Under the pieces are notes generated by a model, which was not told the DNA's origin, ran no database searches, and saw only the letters and a program-made list of their open reading frames with translations. Positions 41,862 through 51,687 of a stretch of 64,000 nucleotides of DNA are shown here, in pieces (positions within the stretch are counted from its first letter, which is position 1; the number at the start of each line of letters is the position of its first letter). Source of the stretch: Cavenderia fasciculata (taxonomy: Eukaryota > Evosea > Eumycetozoa > Acytosteliales > Cavenderiaceae); NCBI RefSeq assembly GCF_000203815.1, contig NW_004457639.1, positions 930,001-994,000 on the forward strand. The letters are read 5' to 3'. Both the position numbers and the translations under genes were made by a program.

Positions 41862-43497
41862 CATTTATACATTTAAAGTAATAATATTGTCGATCTAGAT
41901 TATTATTATTATTATTATTATAATTATGTTTGATATCAGATGACCTGGTTCATTTTGGTAAAGTATGAGGAAGAGGAGGAGGAGAGAGATGTGTAAATCA
42001 ATCTATAAATGAGTTTCCAAAAGTGAACTATAATCTACACTCTCCTCTCTACACAAACTAATCTAAAAACTAAACAAAATGTATTGAGAGAAAGAAGTTG
42101 AGTTGTAACCGAAAGATCTAGAATTGTCAAAGTCTCATAATTATTAATAATACTAGTATTATCAGAAAGTAAAAATCTCGAGGTTGATAGGCTGTAGGGT
42201 AGACGATGCATGAATTACCATGGTTCTTTGATCAAATTTGGGATATTGAAAGACACCTTGTTGTTTTGGGAACACATCAGTTAGATTGTGATTTTTGTTT
42301 TGTTTGAATAAGAACCTATCAATTTAAATTTAATTAAGTTTGTGTTATTGTACAGTAACAACAAAAGGATGATAAGTAAAATGCAAGTATCTATTTCAAA
42401 CAAACAAACAGAGTACAACCAAACAAATAATAATAATAATAATGCAGTCAAATATACAAAAGTATGTAGTATATCAACCCCCATCCCTCTATACTCCATC
42501 CCATTCACCATTCCCACCCCACCCCCACTCAATTCACTCACATGCGATACCGCCGACAACACATGCGATAAGATATATGGATGAAGATGAACAAGAAAGT
42601 AAACAGACAATGAAATTGACATTGACGATGGTAGTAGTAGTAGAATATTTCGTGTTACATTCAACATAACATGTTATACGATGGAAAGGAATTTCCTTTT
42701 CTTGACCAACAACCAGTCGTTTGTATGATAGATATTATTATTATTATTATTATTCTTGCATACAAACGATCGTTTATATGAATGTATCATTCAATGAGCA
42801 ACACATCCATTCATTCATATATCTAAATATAATAATAATAATATTTATAGTAGTAGTATATTCTTTAGTAGTAGTAATAGTAGTACCAATAGCAACAATA
42901 GAGAGATTATACAATTATAATAATTTAATATAATATATTCTAAAAAAAAAAAAAAGTAAATCGTAGTAACTATAATTATTATTTGAACAACAAGGGTGTG
43001 ACGGTAGTGTTTGTCATGCAGTCAGTCAGTGAAAACAGATCGAGGATTATTATAAACAATGTCGACAATAGCAACAAACAAAACAAACATTGTAGAATAT
43101 CCACAATCGATACATAGATAGATAGATACATAGATAGTACTATTGTTATTATTGCTTTTTTGTTAAAACAAAAAAAAAAAAAAAAAAAGGTTATCACAAA
43201 TCTGTTGTACAGATAATTATCTTAATCAAAATCATCCATCATCATACGTTATATATATATACCAATCAAGATATAGATGCAGAAATTGTTCTTTTCTTGT
43301 TTTCACACCATTCAACTCCACCTGGTTGTCATAGAAATATTTAAATAGCATTTTGTTTTGTTTCTACTAGTTGATCATTAATAATATAATATAATATATT
43401 ATTATACTCTCTCTCTCTCTCTCAAATTAATTAACTTAATCCTTATATATATATTTTATTAATATTTATTTATTATTCTAAATTTATTTATTTAATC

Positions 43498-44531
43498 ATG
43501 ATTAGTTGTCAAGACATTTTAAGAATGCCAAGTCGGTTCCTTAAACTCGTCAATATGGAGTTATCCAATGGCACCAAGAGTATAGGTGCATTGGTGGAAA
43601 ACGATCGAAAGGTTGTTGATCTATGTGCACTCGAACCAAATATTCCACGTGACATGAAATCATTCTTGAATGGTGGAATGAAATTATTAAATCTTGCTTC
43701 TCATGTATGTACACCAACACTATAATAGTCTACACTTTAAAGTTCATTTTGTTAATATTAATTTATTTTTCTTTTTTTTAGACATTAAATCAAAATATTT
43801 CAACCAATTCAATTGAAATATCACAAGTTAGAGTAAAAGCACCAATATATGATCCAGAGAAAATCATTTGTATTGGATTGAATTACAAGGAGCATGCAAT
43901 CGAGACAAAGATGCCATTCCCATCGGAACCCATTGTATTTTCAAAATATTCCAATTGTATCGTCGGACCAAACGATAATATCTTGGCACCAAGAAGTATA
44001 CTAAAGGACGAACTAGACTATGAAGTTGAATTGGTGGTCGTAATGGGAAGGGAAGCACGTAATGTTTCTAAAGAGGAAGCATTAGAGTTTGTGGCTGGAT
44101 ACACGGTTGGTAATGATGTGTCGGCTCGTGATTGGCAACTAAAGCGGTCTGGTACACAATGGATGCTCGGTAAGACATTTGACACGTTTGCACCAATTGG
44201 ACCTGCCATCTTGGTCAACCCTCTCATGCTTGCCAACAATAGTGGTGCCTGTGCCAACGATTTCGATCCAAATAGTCTCAATGTAAAGTGTACAGTCAAT
44301 GGCAACGTCCTCCAAAACAGCAATACCAAAGAGTTTATTTTCAACATACAAGAGGTCATCTCTCACTTGTCCAAAGTCATGACTCTCAAGCCCGGTGACA
44401 TCATCTTTACAGGTACGCCATCTGGTGTAGGTCTCGGTAAATCACCTCCAGTCTATCTTAAAAATGGTGATATTGTAACATGTGAAATTGAAAATATAGG
44501 TCAATTGGTTAATAAAGTTAAGGATATTTAA
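43498..44531 (+). CDS. Fumarylacetoacetate hydrolase-family protein (FAHD2-like)
   Basis: Exons 43498-43704 and 43782-44531, in phase, give 318 residues. The first ~65 residues are the variable N-terminal region (GTKSIGALVENDRKVVDL). The catalytic FAH domain begins at about 115 with KIICIGLNYKEHAIE, then PIVFSKYSN, LDYEVELVVVMGREARNV, GYTVGNDVSARDWQ and GDIIFTGTPSGVG. The acidic residues of DELDYEVELV and the Asp of GNDVSARD are the expected divalent-metal ligands, and all are present. FAHD2/FAHD1-type enzymes act on C-C bonds of beta-diketo acids (acylpyruvase or oxaloacetate decarboxylase activity in FAHD1). Length equals the FAHD2 type. No clear mitochondrial presequence is visible. Substrate unknown. 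Confidence 0.85.
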
Positions 44532-44623: not shown

Positions 44624-45427
44624 TTATTGAGCTTTGATGATATAGTGTAAAGCAATATATGGTTGCATGTTGTTATGTGGTTGATTTTTACCATCATTTT
44701 TAATATTATGTGTGTGAATGGATCCTGGGTATTGAGTGTCTCCTTCTGGATCGGAAATAGAGTTGGGTCGGTTGTCGACGGCTCCTCTCATATGGTTTGG
44801 CCCACCTGCCCATCCATTGACGTGGTAGGCGTCGTTGGAAGTTCCAGCTTGGTGTACAACAATGTACTTTGCTTTGTTTCCAGGTCCAGTGACACCACCA
44901 TGATTATGTTCTGGCATTTGATCTTTTGTGAGAGTGACCTGTTCCTCTCCTCCAGTTTGACGGTGATTGTAGTTTGACAACCCATTTCCTTTTCCTGAAC
45001 CAATGATGGCACGACCACGTAAATCAGGTAGGAAAGATCTACCATTGGCATCCTTTCCCAATAAAATGACAAGGTCTTTGTAACGGACGTTGTCAATGAT
45101 TTCAGTACCATTGCACACCAAATAATTGGATGGTACATCTGCCAATGAGAAATACCATTGTTCAATAGTTCCAATTGGTTGAGTTTGTATGACTGGGCCG
45201 TTTAAATGCTTGTATGCAATAAAAGAGACCAACAATGTAATAAAAGAAAGAAAGATTAAATTGAGTTGAATCAATCTATCGTATTTCTTGTCTTGCTTTT
45301 CAACTACAATGGCTGGGTTTTGAACTGCTGGAGCTGGTCCTTGATCCCCATCTGGTACTATTTCTGCTGCCGCTGCTGCTGCTGCTGCTGCTGAATGTTG
45401 TTGATAATTAATTATTGGGCGGACCAT
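44624..45427 (-). CDS. Membrane-anchored phage tail-collar domain protein
   Basis: Single exon, 267 residues. Residues 1-48 hold an Ala run and acidic/basic sequence, and a single membrane segment (LNLIFLSFITLLVSFIAYKH, about 54-73) follows. The rest is the tail-collar module: IEQWYFSLADVPSNYLVCNG (about 88), RYKDLVILLGKDANGRSFLP with PDLRGRAIIGSG, then QVTLTKDQMPEHNHGG, and the end NMQPYIALHYIIKAQ. This is the sequence pattern of the phage tail collar family (Pfam PF07484) seen in tail fibres and in cyanobacterial microcystin-dependent proteins. Topology suggests a type II protein with the collar part outside the cytosol. Function in an amoeba is unknown. It heads a tandem cluster of related genes downstream to 49.1 kb. 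No intron was seen. Confidence 0.85.
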   Translation of the reverse strand: MVRPIINYQQHSAAAAAAAAAEIVPDGDQGPAPAVQNPAIVVEKQDKKYDRLIQLNLIFLSFITLLVSFIAYKHLNGPVIQTQPIGTIEQWYFSLADVPSNYLVCNGTEIIDNVRYKDLVILLGKDANGRSFLPDLRGRAIIGSGKGNGLSNYNHRQTGGEEQVTLTKDQMPEHNHGGVTGPGNKAKYIVVHQAGTSNDAYHVNGWAGGPNHMRGAVDNRPNSISDPEGDTQYPGSIHTHNIKNDGKNQPHNNMQPYIALHYIIKAQ

Positions 45428-45674
45428 ATATAAATATATAAATATATATAAATATGTAAAAACCTTTATTGATATTGTTGAGAATGAAATTGAAAGATCA
45501 ACAAAGTGAAAAAAGGAGTGAGGCTTTTCGAAACGAGCCCTCTCGATTTAAAGTTAAAAAAAAATAACTTTATGCAAGTTTGGACTCGAAGATCGGAGGC
45601 TGAATTATTTTGATTTAATATATTATTGGTCACAACAAGGGTTGACCTTTTATTTAATTAATTAATTAATTAAT

Positions 45675-46391
45675 TATTCAGCTTTGATTATATAGTGTAG
45701 AGCAATGTATGGTTGCATGTTGTGATGTAAAACAAAAATCACATGTGAAGAGATGAGAGTCTCATTGTGAGGTATTGAGTATTATTCTCCTTTGGCCTGA
45801 AGGTCATTGTTGCACTCACACTTTGTAGAGTGGTATATCCATTGACACGGTTTTTGTCGCACAACATCCCAAGCTTGGTGTACCCGATGTAATTTGGATG
45901 TCAATAACTTCTTCTTCTTCTTCTTTTTGTGATGATGGTTTAATGGATAATGATGCCTTCATTGAAAATGCATTCTGGGCAATCAACAAATCCAACTCTG
46001 TATAATGAAAGAGTAGGAATGAGATTATATTATCTTGATTCTTGAGACTTTTCGTGTCTTGTCCATAATCAAATACAGCCTCTGGTGTTGATGGAATAGA
46101 GTAACGAATCGATTGGAATGGAAGATTTGATATGTTGTCAACACAAATTAATTTCAAATCATTTCCTTGTTGTTGTTGTTGTTGAGAGTAAGTAGACGAA
46201 TACTTGTAGGCCAACCAATCAGCAGCTATTTGTTGCATCTCTTGCGTGTAGGCAGTGAATTTAATACAGTATCTTGTACCAACCTTGTTGATGTCTTGGA
46301 TACATATGATTGGGGATATGTATGGTCTAAGCAAACTAAACTGACCATCATTTGCTCTCTGAGTATTTAATCGGTGTGATCCGTAAATATT
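45675..46391 (-). pseudogene. Broken copy of the tail-collar gene family
   Basis: A copy of the gene type at 46.4-47.6 kb. It keeps most of the N-terminal domain (for example ISPIICIQDINKVGT and STPEAVFDYGQD; open from about 46,334 to 45,816) and a few last codons of the collar module near 45,675-45,725, but nearly all the collar module between them is gone. The 5' end also lacks the starting codons and abuts the 3' end of the next copy. It looks non-functional, and recent given its similarity to the neighbours. Confidence 0.75.
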
Positions 46392-46402
46392 GATTTATTT
46401 AA

Positions 46403-47620
46403 TTATTCAGCTTTGATTATATAGTGTAATGCAATGTATGGTTGCATGTTGGTGAGAGGTTGATTACCACCATCAGAGGCGATGTTGTGCGTGTGATGAG
46501 ACATTGGGTATTTAGTATCTCCTCCAGGGTCGGCAATTGAGTTTGGTCGGTTGTCGATCTGTCCTACTGCATGATGTGCACCTCCATCCCATCCATTAAC
46601 ATGCCAATGGCAATTATTATTTCCTTGGTGATGTACAACAATGTATTTGATTTTATTTCCAGCACCTGTAACACCACCGTGGTTGTGAGCTGGCATTTGA
46701 TCTCTGGTAAGAGTGACTTGTTCGACACCACCTGTTTGTCCAAGAGAATAGTTTGATAGACCGGTAGATTGACCACTTCCACTACCAATTACGGTACGAC
46801 CACGTAAATCTGGTAGGAATACTCTTCCATTGGTTGTATCTGGACCAAGTAAATCAGCCAACTTTTTGTATCTTGGTTGGTTTGTAATTTCACGGCCATC
46901 ACAAACCAAGTAATTTGATGGAATGACGTCCAATGACAAAGACCACATACTAATCTTACCAATTGGATCATTGATGATTGTTGTTGTTGTCCCAATACTA
47001 GATGAAATTTGAACATCGGCAACCGATTGTGATGGTATTGATGAGGCTGGAGGTGTGATGGATAACGATGCTCTCATTGAAAATGCATTTTGAGCGATCA
47101 CTTGGTCCAACTCTACAGCGATATTGGCAGCTAGTGTAAATGAGATTACATTATCTTGATTGAGTCTAGTCTGCCATGCATCTTGCCCAAAATCAAATAC
47201 AGCCTCTGGAAATGATGGAATAGCGAAACGAATCGATCGGAATACCAGATTTGATATGTTGTCAACGTTCAAACGCAAAGCATTGCCTCCTTGTTGTTGT
47301 TCTTGTTGCTGTTGTTGTTGTTTTTGTTGTTGTTGAGAGTAAGTAGAATACTTGTTGGCTAACCAATTAGCAGCTAGTTGTTTCATCTCTTGAGTGTAGG
47401 CAGTGAAACGAACATCGTATCTTACATTCCCTCTAACTTGTAGTTTGTTGATTTGTTGAATACAAAGTATTGGAGAGATGACAGCTCTAAGCAAACTAAA
47501 TTGATTGTCAGTTGCTCTCTGAGTATTTAATCGTTGTGATTCGTAAACACCAAACGATGCACCTGTTACACTATCAAACAACTCTGTGGGTTGAGAATCT
47601 AATACCTCTTGTGGTACCAT
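46403..47620 (-). CDS. Tail-collar domain protein, soluble two-domain form
   Basis: Single coding exon of 405 residues from ATG 47620. Residues ~1-220 are a domain shared with two neighbouring copies: SVTGASFGVYESQRLNTQRA, SPILCIQQINKLQVRGNVRY, RFTAYTQEMKQLAANWLANK, a Gln run (about 95-112), then SFPEAVFDFGQDAW and NAFSMRASLSI. I do not recognise it. Residues ~235-405 are the collar module (WSLSLDVIPSNYLVCDGREI, PDLRGRTVIGSG, QMPAHNHGGVTGAGN, ending NMQPYIALHYIIKAE). No signal peptide or membrane segment was seen. A likely non-coding leader exon lies upstream (donor GTATGT near 47,710) with an intron ending just before the ATG; the same leader occurs at the next copy. Confidence 0.82.
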   Translation of the reverse strand: MVPQEVLDSQPTELFDSVTGASFGVYESQRLNTQRATDNQFSLLRAVISPILCIQQINKLQVRGNVRYDVRFTAYTQEMKQLAANWLANKYSTYSQQQQKQQQQQQEQQQGGNALRLNVDNISNLVFRSIRFAIPSFPEAVFDFGQDAWQTRLNQDNVISFTLAANIAVELDQVIAQNAFSMRASLSITPPASSIPSQSVADVQISSSIGTTTTIINDPIGKISMWSLSLDVIPSNYLVCDGREITNQPRYKKLADLLGPDTTNGRVFLPDLRGRTVIGSGSGQSTGLSNYSLGQTGGVEQVTLTRDQMPAHNHGGVTGAGNKIKYIVVHHQGNNNCHWHVNGWDGGAHHAVGQIDNRPNSIADPGGDTKYPMSHHTHNIASDGGNQPLTNMQPYIALHYIIKAE

Positions 47621-47951
47621 CTTGACTAATAAATAATAAATACAAAGTACAAGGATTAGTATCTAACAAAAAGAGATAGATAGTATTTAAACAAAGGACA
47701 AATAACATACCTTTCTTTATTTGTATAGTTTAATTGAACAAGTTGACATGACTTGATAGCAACTACAACTACATGTTATCTTATATTTTCAATTCTAAAT
47801 AGATAGATATCTGTTTGTACATATCGGGGGCTGACGCAAAGTAGAATGTCGTTCTTTTCTCCTTCTCAAGACTAAAAGACATGAGTGGTCAAAATTTAAG
47901 TTTGGTTGACCTTTAAAAATAATTGATTTATTTATTTATTTAATTATTTAA
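47621..47951. other. Leader and intergenic stretch between collar genes
   Basis: Holds the predicted 5' leader intron of the 46.4-47.6 kb gene. The block around 47,700-47,760 (CCTTTCTTTATTTGTATAG on the plus strand) recurs near 49,220-49,242 in front of the other copy. Confidence 0.55.
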
Positions 47952-49085
47952 TTATTCGGCTTTAATGATATAATGTAAAGCAATGTATGGTTGCATGTTG
48001 GTGTGAGGTTGATTACCACCATCAGAGGTGATGTTGTGAGTATGATGTGATAATGGGTAATTGATGTCTCCTTCAGCGTCGGCAATTGAGTTTGGTCTGC
48101 CGTCAACGACACCTCTCATATGGTTTGGTGCTCCTCCTGCCCACCCATTAACATGCCAATGACAATTACTGGTTCCAGCTTGATATACAACAATGTACTT
48201 TGCTTTATTTCCAGCACCTGTAACACCACCGTGGTTGTGTGCTGGCATTTGGTCTCTGGTAAGAGTGACTTGTTCGACACCACCTGTTTGTCCAAGAGAA
48301 TAGTTTGATAGACCAGTAGATTGACCACTACCAATAACAGTACGACCACGTAAATCTGGTAGGAATACTCTTCCATTGGCGTCACGTCCAAGTAAATCGA
48401 CCAACTTTTGGTATCTTGTTAAATTGGTGATTTCACTACCGTCACATACCAAATGATTGGATGGAATGTTGGTTGGTGAGAAATACCACATAATAATTCT
48501 ACCAATTGGATCGATTGGTTCTACACCAGAACTAGATGAAATTTGAACATCAACAGCTGATTGTTGTGATGGCGAAATAGATATTGATGCTCTTAATGAA
48601 AATGCATTTTGAGCAATCACTTGGTCCAACTCGGCAGCGATATTGGGAGCAAGTGTGAATGAGATTACATTATCTTGATTGAGTCTATTCTGTAAAGCAT
48701 CTTGTCCATAATCAAACACAGCCTCTGGAAATGATGGTACCGAGTAACGAATCGATCGGAATGTCAAATAAGAGACATTGTGAGTGCTCAATCTCAAAGC
48801 ATTGCCTGCTGCATTAGAGTAAGTAGAGTACTTGTTGGCCATCCAATTAGCAGCGACTTGTCTCATCTCTTGAGTGTAGGCAGTGAAACGAACATCGTAT
48901 CTTACATTCCCTCTAACTTGTAGTTTGTTGATTTGTTGAATACACATGATTGGAGAGATAAGCAAACTAAATTGATTGTCAGTTGCTCTTTGAGTATTTA
49001 ATCGTTGTGACTCGTAAACACCATACGAAGCACCAGTAACACTATCACTCAACACGATTGGTTGAGGATCTAATACCTCTTGAGA
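47952..49085 (-). CDS. Tail-collar domain protein, second soluble copy (start uncertain)
   Basis: Open frame from about 49,085 to the stop at 47,952, encoding about 370 residues closely similar to the 46.4-47.6 kb gene through the N-terminal domain (SVTGASYGVYESQRLNTQRA, SPIMCIQQINKLQVRGNVRY, SFPEAVFDYGQDAL) and the collar module (WYFSPTNIPSNHLVCDGSEI, PDLRGRTVIGSG, QMPAHNHGGVTGAGN, NMQPYIALHYIIKAE). It lacks the Gln run of its neighbour. The starting ATG used by the neighbour is not in frame here, and the first in-frame ATG is about 30 codons in, so the true start (an upstream spliced exon or the internal ATG) is unresolved. The collar module also shares stretches with the membrane-anchored copy (KAKYIVVYQAGTSN, GGAPNHMRG), suggesting exchange among the copies. 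Confidence 0.72.
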   Translation of the reverse strand, partial: SQEVLDPQPIVLSDSVTGASYGVYESQRLNTQRATDNQFSLLISPIMCIQQINKLQVRGNVRYDVRFTAYTQEMRQVAANWMANKYSTYSNAAGNALRLSTHNVSYLTFRSIRYSVPSFPEAVFDYGQDALQNRLNQDNVISFTLAPNIAAELDQVIAQNAFSLRASISISPSQQSAVDVQISSSSGVEPIDPIGRIIMWYFSPTNIPSNHLVCDGSEITNLTRYQKLVDLLGRDANGRVFLPDLRGRTVIGSGQSTGLSNYSLGQTGGVEQVTLTRDQMPAHNHGGVTGAGNKAKYIVVYQAGTSNCHWHVNGWAGGAPNHMRGVVDGRPNSIADAEGDINYPLSHHTHNITSDGGNQPHTNMQPYIALHYIIKAE

Positions 49086-49578
49086 TGTGGTACATTAATC
49101 CTTCCATCCTATAAATATATATATAATCCTACGTTACACAAAATTAAAAAGTAAATAAACAAAGGTTAATACAAAGGTTATACAATCTTAATACACACCT
49201 TAACTTTAACAAATAATACATACCTTTCTTTATTTGTATAGTAGTTCTACTATAGTTTTAAAGATTGATTGATTGAACAAGTGTTGACATGACTTGATTA
49301 AATATGTATGTGTGTTAGCATCTTCTACATGTTGTTAACTTGGAAATTCACTAACTAATAGATAGATATTTGTTTGTTCGTGTTGGGGTGATGACACAAT
49401 ACAAGAAGTATTTGAGCTTTTATTTATTTTCTTTTTTTTTGACATGTATCAATCGTTAGGTTGTTATACCATTTTGAGTTCTACTAATACTTGTTCATAT
49501 TGTTCATTCTTGAGAGTAGTAGTAATAAATTATTGTACAAGAAGGTAAACGTTGGAGTGAGTGACTTTAAGGGTTTAT
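49086..49578. other. Upstream region of the last collar gene
   Basis: Contains the leader block shared with the neighbouring collar gene (near 49,220-49,280, including GAACAAGTGTTGACATGACT, close to the 47,735-47,757 sequence) and the 3' flank of the F-box gene. No other gene was seen. Confidence 0.55.
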
Positions 49579-51270
49579 TTAGTTGGAAGGAAGAGTAAGA
49601 GGAAGACTAAATTTTAGTTTTGGAGGTATATTACCTTCCAATGGACTTGGGAAACAAAGATAAATTGGTTGTTCTAGACCATCATTTGTTTGTTGTTGAT
49701 GAATGATTCCACCATATAGAGATTGACCAAGTATTAATACATTTCTATTTTCTTCCAATCGACGAATTGAAACTGTATAATTAAACTCTGTGAAGAAGAG
49801 TTCTTGCACATTTGTTTGATTGATAAGATAGTTTAATTGAAATATCCAAACATCGTAGTTTTCAAGACTAACATTGACCGTCAGTTTTGAAAGAGTTGGA
49901 GGGAATATAAAACCTTGGTCATTGACAATCGAATGAACTTTGGTAAGAATGGATGGTCCCTCTGTGACTGAACTGGTTTTAGAAACGAGGTATTTGAATT
50001 CTGTGACTGATGTTGGGATAGTCTTATCTATTGATGGGTGGTGTAACAGTCTACCATAATCAATATGTTGTAGGCTGTTGTTGTTATTGTTGTTGTTGTT
50101 GGTGGTGGGATATATAAATTGAAGAGGAGGTGATTCCAAAAGACCGTATTTATGTAACCATCTAAACTCTTGTAAACCATTTGGTAGAGTGATTGGAGTA
50201 TGAATGATGGTGTCATATATATTCTCCTCTTCCTCACTTTGACCCTTACACGTAATATCATTGAGTACAAGTTTTTGAATAGAGTTTGGGAGTGTATTGA
50301 TGAGTTGTAAATCGTAGCATGATAGTACTAGAGATTCTACAGTGTCTGGAACAAGACACTTGATTTTCGACGATGGCCAAATAGCTTGGATTTTAAGTGT
50401 CTTGACAGACGGTGGAATGAACGACACTGGAATATCCGAGTGTGTTGAATGGATCGACAGCAGTGTAAGGTGTGGTGTACGTGTTGCCAACGACTCTCCC
50501 AAATTAATATAATCGTCTTGACCAAAGTTCATATCCAGTGATGTTAGGGTTATTGGGAAGAAATCGATGGTTAGATTAGTGATGGGTCCAACCGACTCGG
50601 ATTGCTCAAATGTCTTGAGGTTTGGAGCAAGTCGAATCTGTGATGCGTCAATACCATCATATGCACCGGGTACACAGAGTATAAACGTCTCGAGTGAAAC
50701 GAGACTGTCGAGATACAGCACATCCGACTCTGTCAAATCGACCATGACAAGATCGAGATGAACCAAGTTCACAAGTGGCTGAAAATAGGTAGGTGACCTT
50801 ACTTGTTCAAACTGAATCTCTAGATACTTTAAACTACTTGGTAGAGTAGTGTTGCTGGCATCTACCTCATCAATAGTGCACGACCGCATCCAATTGAGAG
50901 ATGTCAGTTTGTCGAGTCCGAGGGATTGTGGTGATAGAGGATAGTAACCGTCCAAGTCTAGCTTTTCAATACCAACCGGTAGTTTGATAAAAGAGTCATC
51001 TTCAAACTCGACAGTACTTGATATCATCATGGTCAGCGACTTTAGTGAATCGGGTAAACCAACAACAAACGTCTCTGGAACGGTTCGATAGTTGATCGAC
51101 AGGTGATTGAGATGGTGAGGAAAAAAGTTGGTTGGCAAAGGTTCATTGAGTGGTCGACAGAGGGTTAATGAAGTGGTAGATGTTGGTATAGTTGATAGTA
51201 ATTGATCGTGTTTATCACTTGTTATTTCTTCTAATACCATTACTTTTGTAATATTTTGATTATTATTTTG

Positions 51271-51314
<44 letters not shown>

Positions 51315-51687
51315 CTTTGTTTGTTGTTGTTGTTGTTGATGGTATGATCAAAGTATCTTGGAATGAGTTTGTAAACATCCTCTTGAATGAGCCAAGATGA
51401 TAACATTTCTCAGAGTAGAATGCATTGATGTTGTTAAAGACGACTGATTTTTGTGGATTGTATTCAATGTGTTTAAATGATAGACTGTTGTTGTTGTTGT
51501 GTTGTTGTTGTTGATGTTCATTATTGTTGTTACTGTTGTTGTTGAATAGAGTCAAATTGAACAATCTTTTACAAGTTAACAACAGACACACCAAATCTAC
51601 ATTATCATCTACATGATTGATTATATTTAATAATACTATAGTTGGTATCTTGTTGTTGTTGATATAATCTTCTCCTTCTTGTTGCAT
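49579..51687 (-). CDS. F-box-like/leucine-rich (FNIP-type) repeat protein
   Basis: Single exon of 702 residues from ATG 51687. Residues ~14-50 (IPTIVLLNIINHVDDNVDLV, then LTCKRLFNL) read as an F-box-like helix set. After Asn-rich sequence (50-160) come irregular repeats of about 22-45 residues with a 'P.SL..L.L' core: LPDSLKSLTMM, LPSSLKYLEIQF, IPPSVKTLKIQ, VPDTVESLVLS, LPNSIQKLVLN, LPNGLQEF, FPPTLSKLTVN. Dictyostelids have very large families of such FNIP/LRR proteins, often with an F-box, thought to serve as substrate-binding subunits of SCF ubiquitin ligases. The repeats are more divergent than canonical FNIP. It ends in PLTLPSN. Confidence 0.7.

Follow-up and report, generated by a model that had tools for sequence, protein, structure and literature searches.

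A tandem cluster of tail-collar domain genes in the social amoeba Cavenderia fasciculata, possibly acquired from a bacterium or phage

The phage tail-collar domain (PF07484) is itself already well known. In phage T4 the collar and the tip belong to trimeric fibres, and the HxH sites (histidine, any residue, histidine) of the gp37 tip are filled by Fe2+, as described in the available parts of two reports (PMC6363177, PMC11705849). In bacteria the domain occurs in the microcystin-dependent (Mdp) or tail-collar proteins, the module order of which is the same as in the genes treated here. The nearest precedent met in the eukaryotic sphere is provided by the virophages: in the accessible portions of the respective reports three consecutive PF07484 genes were modelled as a heterotrimer (PMC12724248) and OLV18/19 carry the domain (PMC3671162). 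We analysed a stretch of 64,000 nucleotides from C. fasciculata (contig NW_004457639.1, positions 930001-994000; the window), the minus strand of which contains three open frames (A, B and C) and one broken copy of collar-module genes at 44624-49094. Tentatively, and with slightly less confidence than an even balance would carry, the locus is read as a locally duplicated collar/tip cluster of social-amoeba type, which would have been gained horizontally from a bacterium or phage and would act as predicted trimeric binders of bacterial glycans.

Collar genes and their fusion partners

An earlier note on this DNA had assigned the genes to the phage tail-collar family, and this was borne out by the profile searches: PF07484 was found above its curated cut-off (24 bits) in all three genes, the whole proteins scoring 26.5 (A), 27.1 (B) and 29.9 bits (C). 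Tail families of the PHROG collection were matched as well (phrog_8763, tail protein; E values of 4.9e-24 for A, 7.7e-26 for B and 3e-24 for C). PF21939 (Gp10_C, the C-terminal part of collar proteins) stayed below its cut-off of 27 bits (A 24.6, B 21.8, C 22.4), and the Pfam scan of the broken copy gave no match at all. Among the named bacterial collar/Mdp families of NCBIfam, A and C had no match, while B had one match at chance level, to another family (E 0.08, far under the cut-off).

The new element of the locus is that the genes are fusions: A is joined to a predicted transmembrane anchor, while B, C and the broken copy are joined to a common N-terminal domain (N-domain). Gene A (44624..45427; all features of the cluster are on the minus strand) is an open reading frame (ORF) of 267 amino acids starting with ATG. 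It lacks the N-domain and has instead a short Ala-rich N-terminus and a single hydrophobic segment, predicted to span the membrane at residues 52-70 (45218..45274; Kyte-Doolittle mean 2.32 over 19 residues), followed by the collar/tail-tip module (44627..45193) identified by profile matches and carrying the HxH motifs HNH and HTH. The flank of the segment on its N-terminal side is rich in K/R, from which the positive-inside rule predicts that the collar module of A lies outside the cytosol.

Gene B (46403..47620, 405 amino acids, ORF with ATG) consists of the N-domain with a Gln run (46991..47620, a part without any Pfam match) and the collar/tail-tip module (46406..46990), identified by profile matches and carrying the motifs HNH, HWH and HTH. 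Gene C is a 380-codon open frame (47952..49094) of the same build; its N-domain (48537..49094) has no Gln run and is 81% identical to that of B over the matched part, and its module (47955..48536) is likewise defined by profile matches and has the motifs HNH, HWH and HTH. The earlier count of three open genes and one broken copy agrees with the frames, the motifs and the coordinates, but it holds for C only in part: an in-frame ATG is absent where B starts, the first one being codon 50, and the upstream ATGs that were read are out of frame. With this start codon missing from C, A and B are the only copies of intact appearance. The probable leader introns of the same note can be retained as candidates from the sequence reading. 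Before B a GTATGT donor at 47710 may be paired with an AG acceptor at 47626 or else at 47663 (47626..47710), and before C a GTATGT donor at 49223 may be paired with a TATAG acceptor at 49109 (49109..49223).

The broken copy (45677..46394) lies between A and B. It is genuine: an N-domain fragment occupies the ORF at 45816-46394 and the last residues of the family, NMQPYIALHYIIKAE, follow in another frame at 45677-45799, nearly the whole collar being missing.

The N-domain of about 170 residues, which the earlier note did not contain, seems to have no counterpart in the material searched. None of the 1002 candidates drawn from 5.8 billion proteins matched it at E <= 1, and in this genome nothing was found besides the present locus, save one low-complexity match. 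When folded alone it gave a predicted local distance difference test score (pLDDT) of 50.5, that is, a model of low confidence, with two halves of strands plus helix and scattered structural neighbours.

The ratios of nonsynonymous to synonymous substitution rates (dN/dS) were calculated pairwise. For the collar module they were 0.29 in B/C (dS 0.49), 0.19 in A/C and 0.23 in A/B (dS about 1.2 in both latter cases), while for the N-domain the B/C value was 0.36 and the values involving the broken copy were 0.49-0.53. The module is maintained by purifying selection, and the broken copy looks relaxed. These values bear on the view that the cluster is a set of duplicated copies in decay, with little function left. 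The loss of the collar in one copy, the missing in-frame ATG of C and the higher dN/dS of the broken copy agree with such a decay; however, the low module values of the open copies include the most diverged pairs, and the frames stay open across about 190 codons at dS up to 1.2. We hold the decay explanation to be improbable.

Genomic setting and origin

The cluster had been described as sitting among ordinary intron-bearing dictyostelid genes with dictyostelid-type base use, and cellular neighbours and host-like codon use were indeed found. When 10 neighbouring ORFs were scanned with Pfam, six had families above the cut-off (FAA hydrolase, FNIP repeats, bromodomain, fumarase, PTR2, and ribosomal S4e with the 40S S4 C-terminus), one had a sub-threshold match only and three had none. 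All the named families are cellular, several are eukaryotic in type and none is viral. The G+C content at third codon positions was 0.28-0.32 in the cluster versus 0.33-0.38 in three neighbours. The codon correlation with the host pool was 0.65 for A and 0.88 for both B and C, compared with 0.48-0.88 for 10 host ORFs and -0.51 to 0.62 for five bacterial or phage loci, the value of A thus barely exceeding that of the top bacterial or phage locus. No further PF07484 place was found beyond this locus in the genome (31.0 Mb, 21 contigs), searched in six frames and exon by exon.

Contamination is the classical suspicion when a domain of bacterial or phage type turns up in a eukaryote; this, or a wrong contig join, would be the corresponding explanation here, and the earlier note had allowed for it. 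Against this, the cluster lies inside a contig (C18) reaching at least 994 kb, its genes have Ala and Gln runs, a third-position composition near that of the neighbours and host-like codon use, and the N-domain of B, C and the broken copy is without a bacterial relative among the candidates mentioned above. Contig extent, codon use and cellular neighbours speak for residence in the host chromosome; contamination is unlikely, and we assign it only a minimal probability.

Relatives of the module were sought in proteins, phage records, prokaryote genomes and IMG/VR, the only eukaryotic genome covered being that of the window itself. By tblastn, 220 of the 50,697 phage records matched the module of C, all with less than 60% identity. 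In the prokaryote genomes (84,980 species) 82 of the 248 pattern stretches encode a relative, and in IMG/VR 5 of 58 and at least 248 of 600 stretches do so. Listed were the best 120 of 178 and 120 of 5504 proteins, 30 of 220 phage records, 80 of 82 prokaryote loci and 80 of at least 248 IMG/VR loci; among these listed matches all relatives with a named organism are bacterial, archaeal or phage, and the remainder carry no organism. The best of the 80 IMG/VR loci by the A/B/C profile (L097) has surroundings which look, by eye, like ordinary phage tail genes. As a side observation, the proteins P0201, P0207, P0164, P0185 and P0208 are N/I/K-rich collar proteins of giant-virus-like appearance by eye.

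A tree of 146 rows was built from the three amoeba modules, 63 full-coverage sequences and 80 partial-coverage loci, no fewer than 170 of the 233 proteins being omitted; its bootstrap was not fully converged (0.971). A, B and C formed one clade (support 100/99) on a stem of 0.65, with B and C as sisters (100/77), and the remaining rows are bacterial, archaeal, viral or without organism. The single clade, together with the position of the three genes side by side in one orientation, supported the local duplication proposed earlier. Placements were tested on a quick tree of 58 rows (3 + 45 + 10) by the approximately unbiased test (p-AU). Holding the amoeba modules together with P0178 gave a p-AU of 0.56, with P0018 and P0151 0.795, and with six Mdp-type bacterial rows 0.332, so none was rejected. 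The first two of these constrained trees scored 4.2 and 22.4 log units better, respectively, than the free quick tree, which is hence not optimal. Since the three alternative placements all stand unrejected, no donor can be named from the tree.

P0018 and P0151 are the nearest in layout among the bacterial-type proteins. In an alignment read by eye they have the stretch N(P)..YR.V....H..GW..G and HTHN in common with the amoeba modules, and GW.[SGA]G occurs in only three of the 63 full-length relatives, namely in these two and in P0172. They differ from the amoeba modules in having other N-termini and an identity of 37-39%, and their source organisms are unassigned.

Pfam lists some eukaryotic PF07484 proteins. 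The module could be ancient in eukaryotes or have passed between them repeatedly, the dictyostelids having inherited it or received it from another eukaryote and the cluster being only a local copy of it. The metagenomic relative P0178, 42% identical in A3, starts with a hydrophobic stretch that resembles a eukaryotic signal peptide by eye, and its grouping with A, B and C is the unrejected placement given above. A and B are also widely diverged (dS about 1.2), and therefore the gene has probably been long resident in the amoeba. Nevertheless, P0178 carries no organism assignment, and the listed relatives with a named organism are without exception bacterial, archaeal or phage. We consider the eukaryotic origin unlikely, though deserving of some weight. 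P0178 as such may point to a further eukaryote that has the module.

Alternatively, the genes may have arrived via a virus of eukaryotes (a virophage, polinton-like or giant virus) bearing tandem tail-collar genes, instead of coming straight from a bacterium or phage. In favour of such a route are the virophage gene triplets, OLV18/19 and the polinton-like viruses; in the available part of the report on the latter (PMC12220804) other phage-like fibre domains are described and the word 'collar' is absent. The virophage triplets (DSLV2, OLV18/19), as far as the sources at hand describe them, are like the amoeba cluster in having PF07484, in comprising three consecutive genes and in being borne by an element in a eukaryotic cell. 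The three genes are consecutive here too, A, B and C having one orientation with the broken copy between A and B and C being without a normal start, and P0201, P0207 and P0164 look giant-virus-like (by eye, unverified). In contrast to the virophages, no capsid or packaging gene was seen when 25 ORFs were inspected by eye, the neighbours named by Pfam are the cellular ones listed above, and A, B and C do not represent three old lineages but are paralogues with a common origin inside a single clade of the amoeba. DNA_pol_B_2 was unmatched in this genome, but the same search missed 14 of 14 controls and is hence uninformative. The viral route appears quite improbable.

A horizontal gain from a bacterium or its phage is the likely origin, as judged from the sequence comparisons. 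In the open-licence PubMed Central literature, as far as the texts were accessible, no tail-collar gene is told for a dictyostelid or other cellular eukaryote, nor one fused to a membrane anchor or an orphan domain; the word 'phage' is absent from the available main text of a report on dictyostelid gene transfer (PMC4931340).

T4 fibre tips and the proposed function

Homology to the receptor-binding domain of the short tail fibre gp12 of T4 was detected with a four-sequence profile, which gave five matches, including 1ocy (E 8.2e-5) and 1pdi (E 2.6e-4). T4 gp37 was not among these five, and the single sequence of B gave nothing at E <= 1 in the search for solved structures. Weak structural alignments were obtained with gp12 (1ocy, 5lye) and with the gp37 tip (2xgf); 50-72 residues were aligned, of which 24-30% were identical. 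The C-terminal strand motif ...LNYIIK is common to the gp12 and gp37 tips and the amoeba modules, and HxH motifs are present in both the gp37 tip and the amoeba modules. The HxH counts were 3 in B, 3 in C and 2 in A (shuffle P 0.023, 0.013 and 0.073, respectively), and a PxHxH site was found in 60 of the 63 full-length relatives. The amoeba genes differ from the T4 fibres in that they have no fibre shaft, are encoded by the host and carry the predicted membrane anchor or the orphan N-domain.

The trimer, the metal, the location and the ligand are inferred. Three chains would wind together as in gp12 and gp37, with metal ions held by the HxH histidines and the final NMQPYIALHYIIK strand folded back against the collar. 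A may be a membrane receptor of type II, displayed at the surface of the amoeba or within the phagosome, with B as its soluble partner. Such trimers could bind bacterial surface glycans, the most likely use being the binding of bacteria, whether these are prey or hostile ones to be avoided. It is conceivable, but in our opinion doubtful, that the amoeba has made the bacterium-gripping tip of a phage its own prey receptor, that is, a trimer stapled by metal and carried by a transmembrane stalk (A) and a soluble partner (B, perhaps C) with a domain unseen elsewhere.

The way in which amoebae distinguish and grip different bacteria is poorly understood. If the proposal is true, a phage part already tuned to bacterial surfaces would have been recruited as the tool of a bacterivore, a eukaryotic receptor would have been made from phage hardware, and the receptor would be directly testable. 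The fusion in A, a predicted anchor plus a collar, is simple in build and hence amenable to expression and glycan arrays.

Flanking sequence

The FAA hydrolase gene is located directly downstream of the cluster (43435-44531), and its reading frame changes between 43725 and 43782, which points to an intron there. On the other side the FNIP repeat signal lies in a long minus-strand ORF (49579-51687) adjoining the cluster. Among the 2-kb steps the segment 40001-42000 has the lowest GC content (0.262) and strong skews of both kinds (GC skew 0.281, AT skew 0.216).
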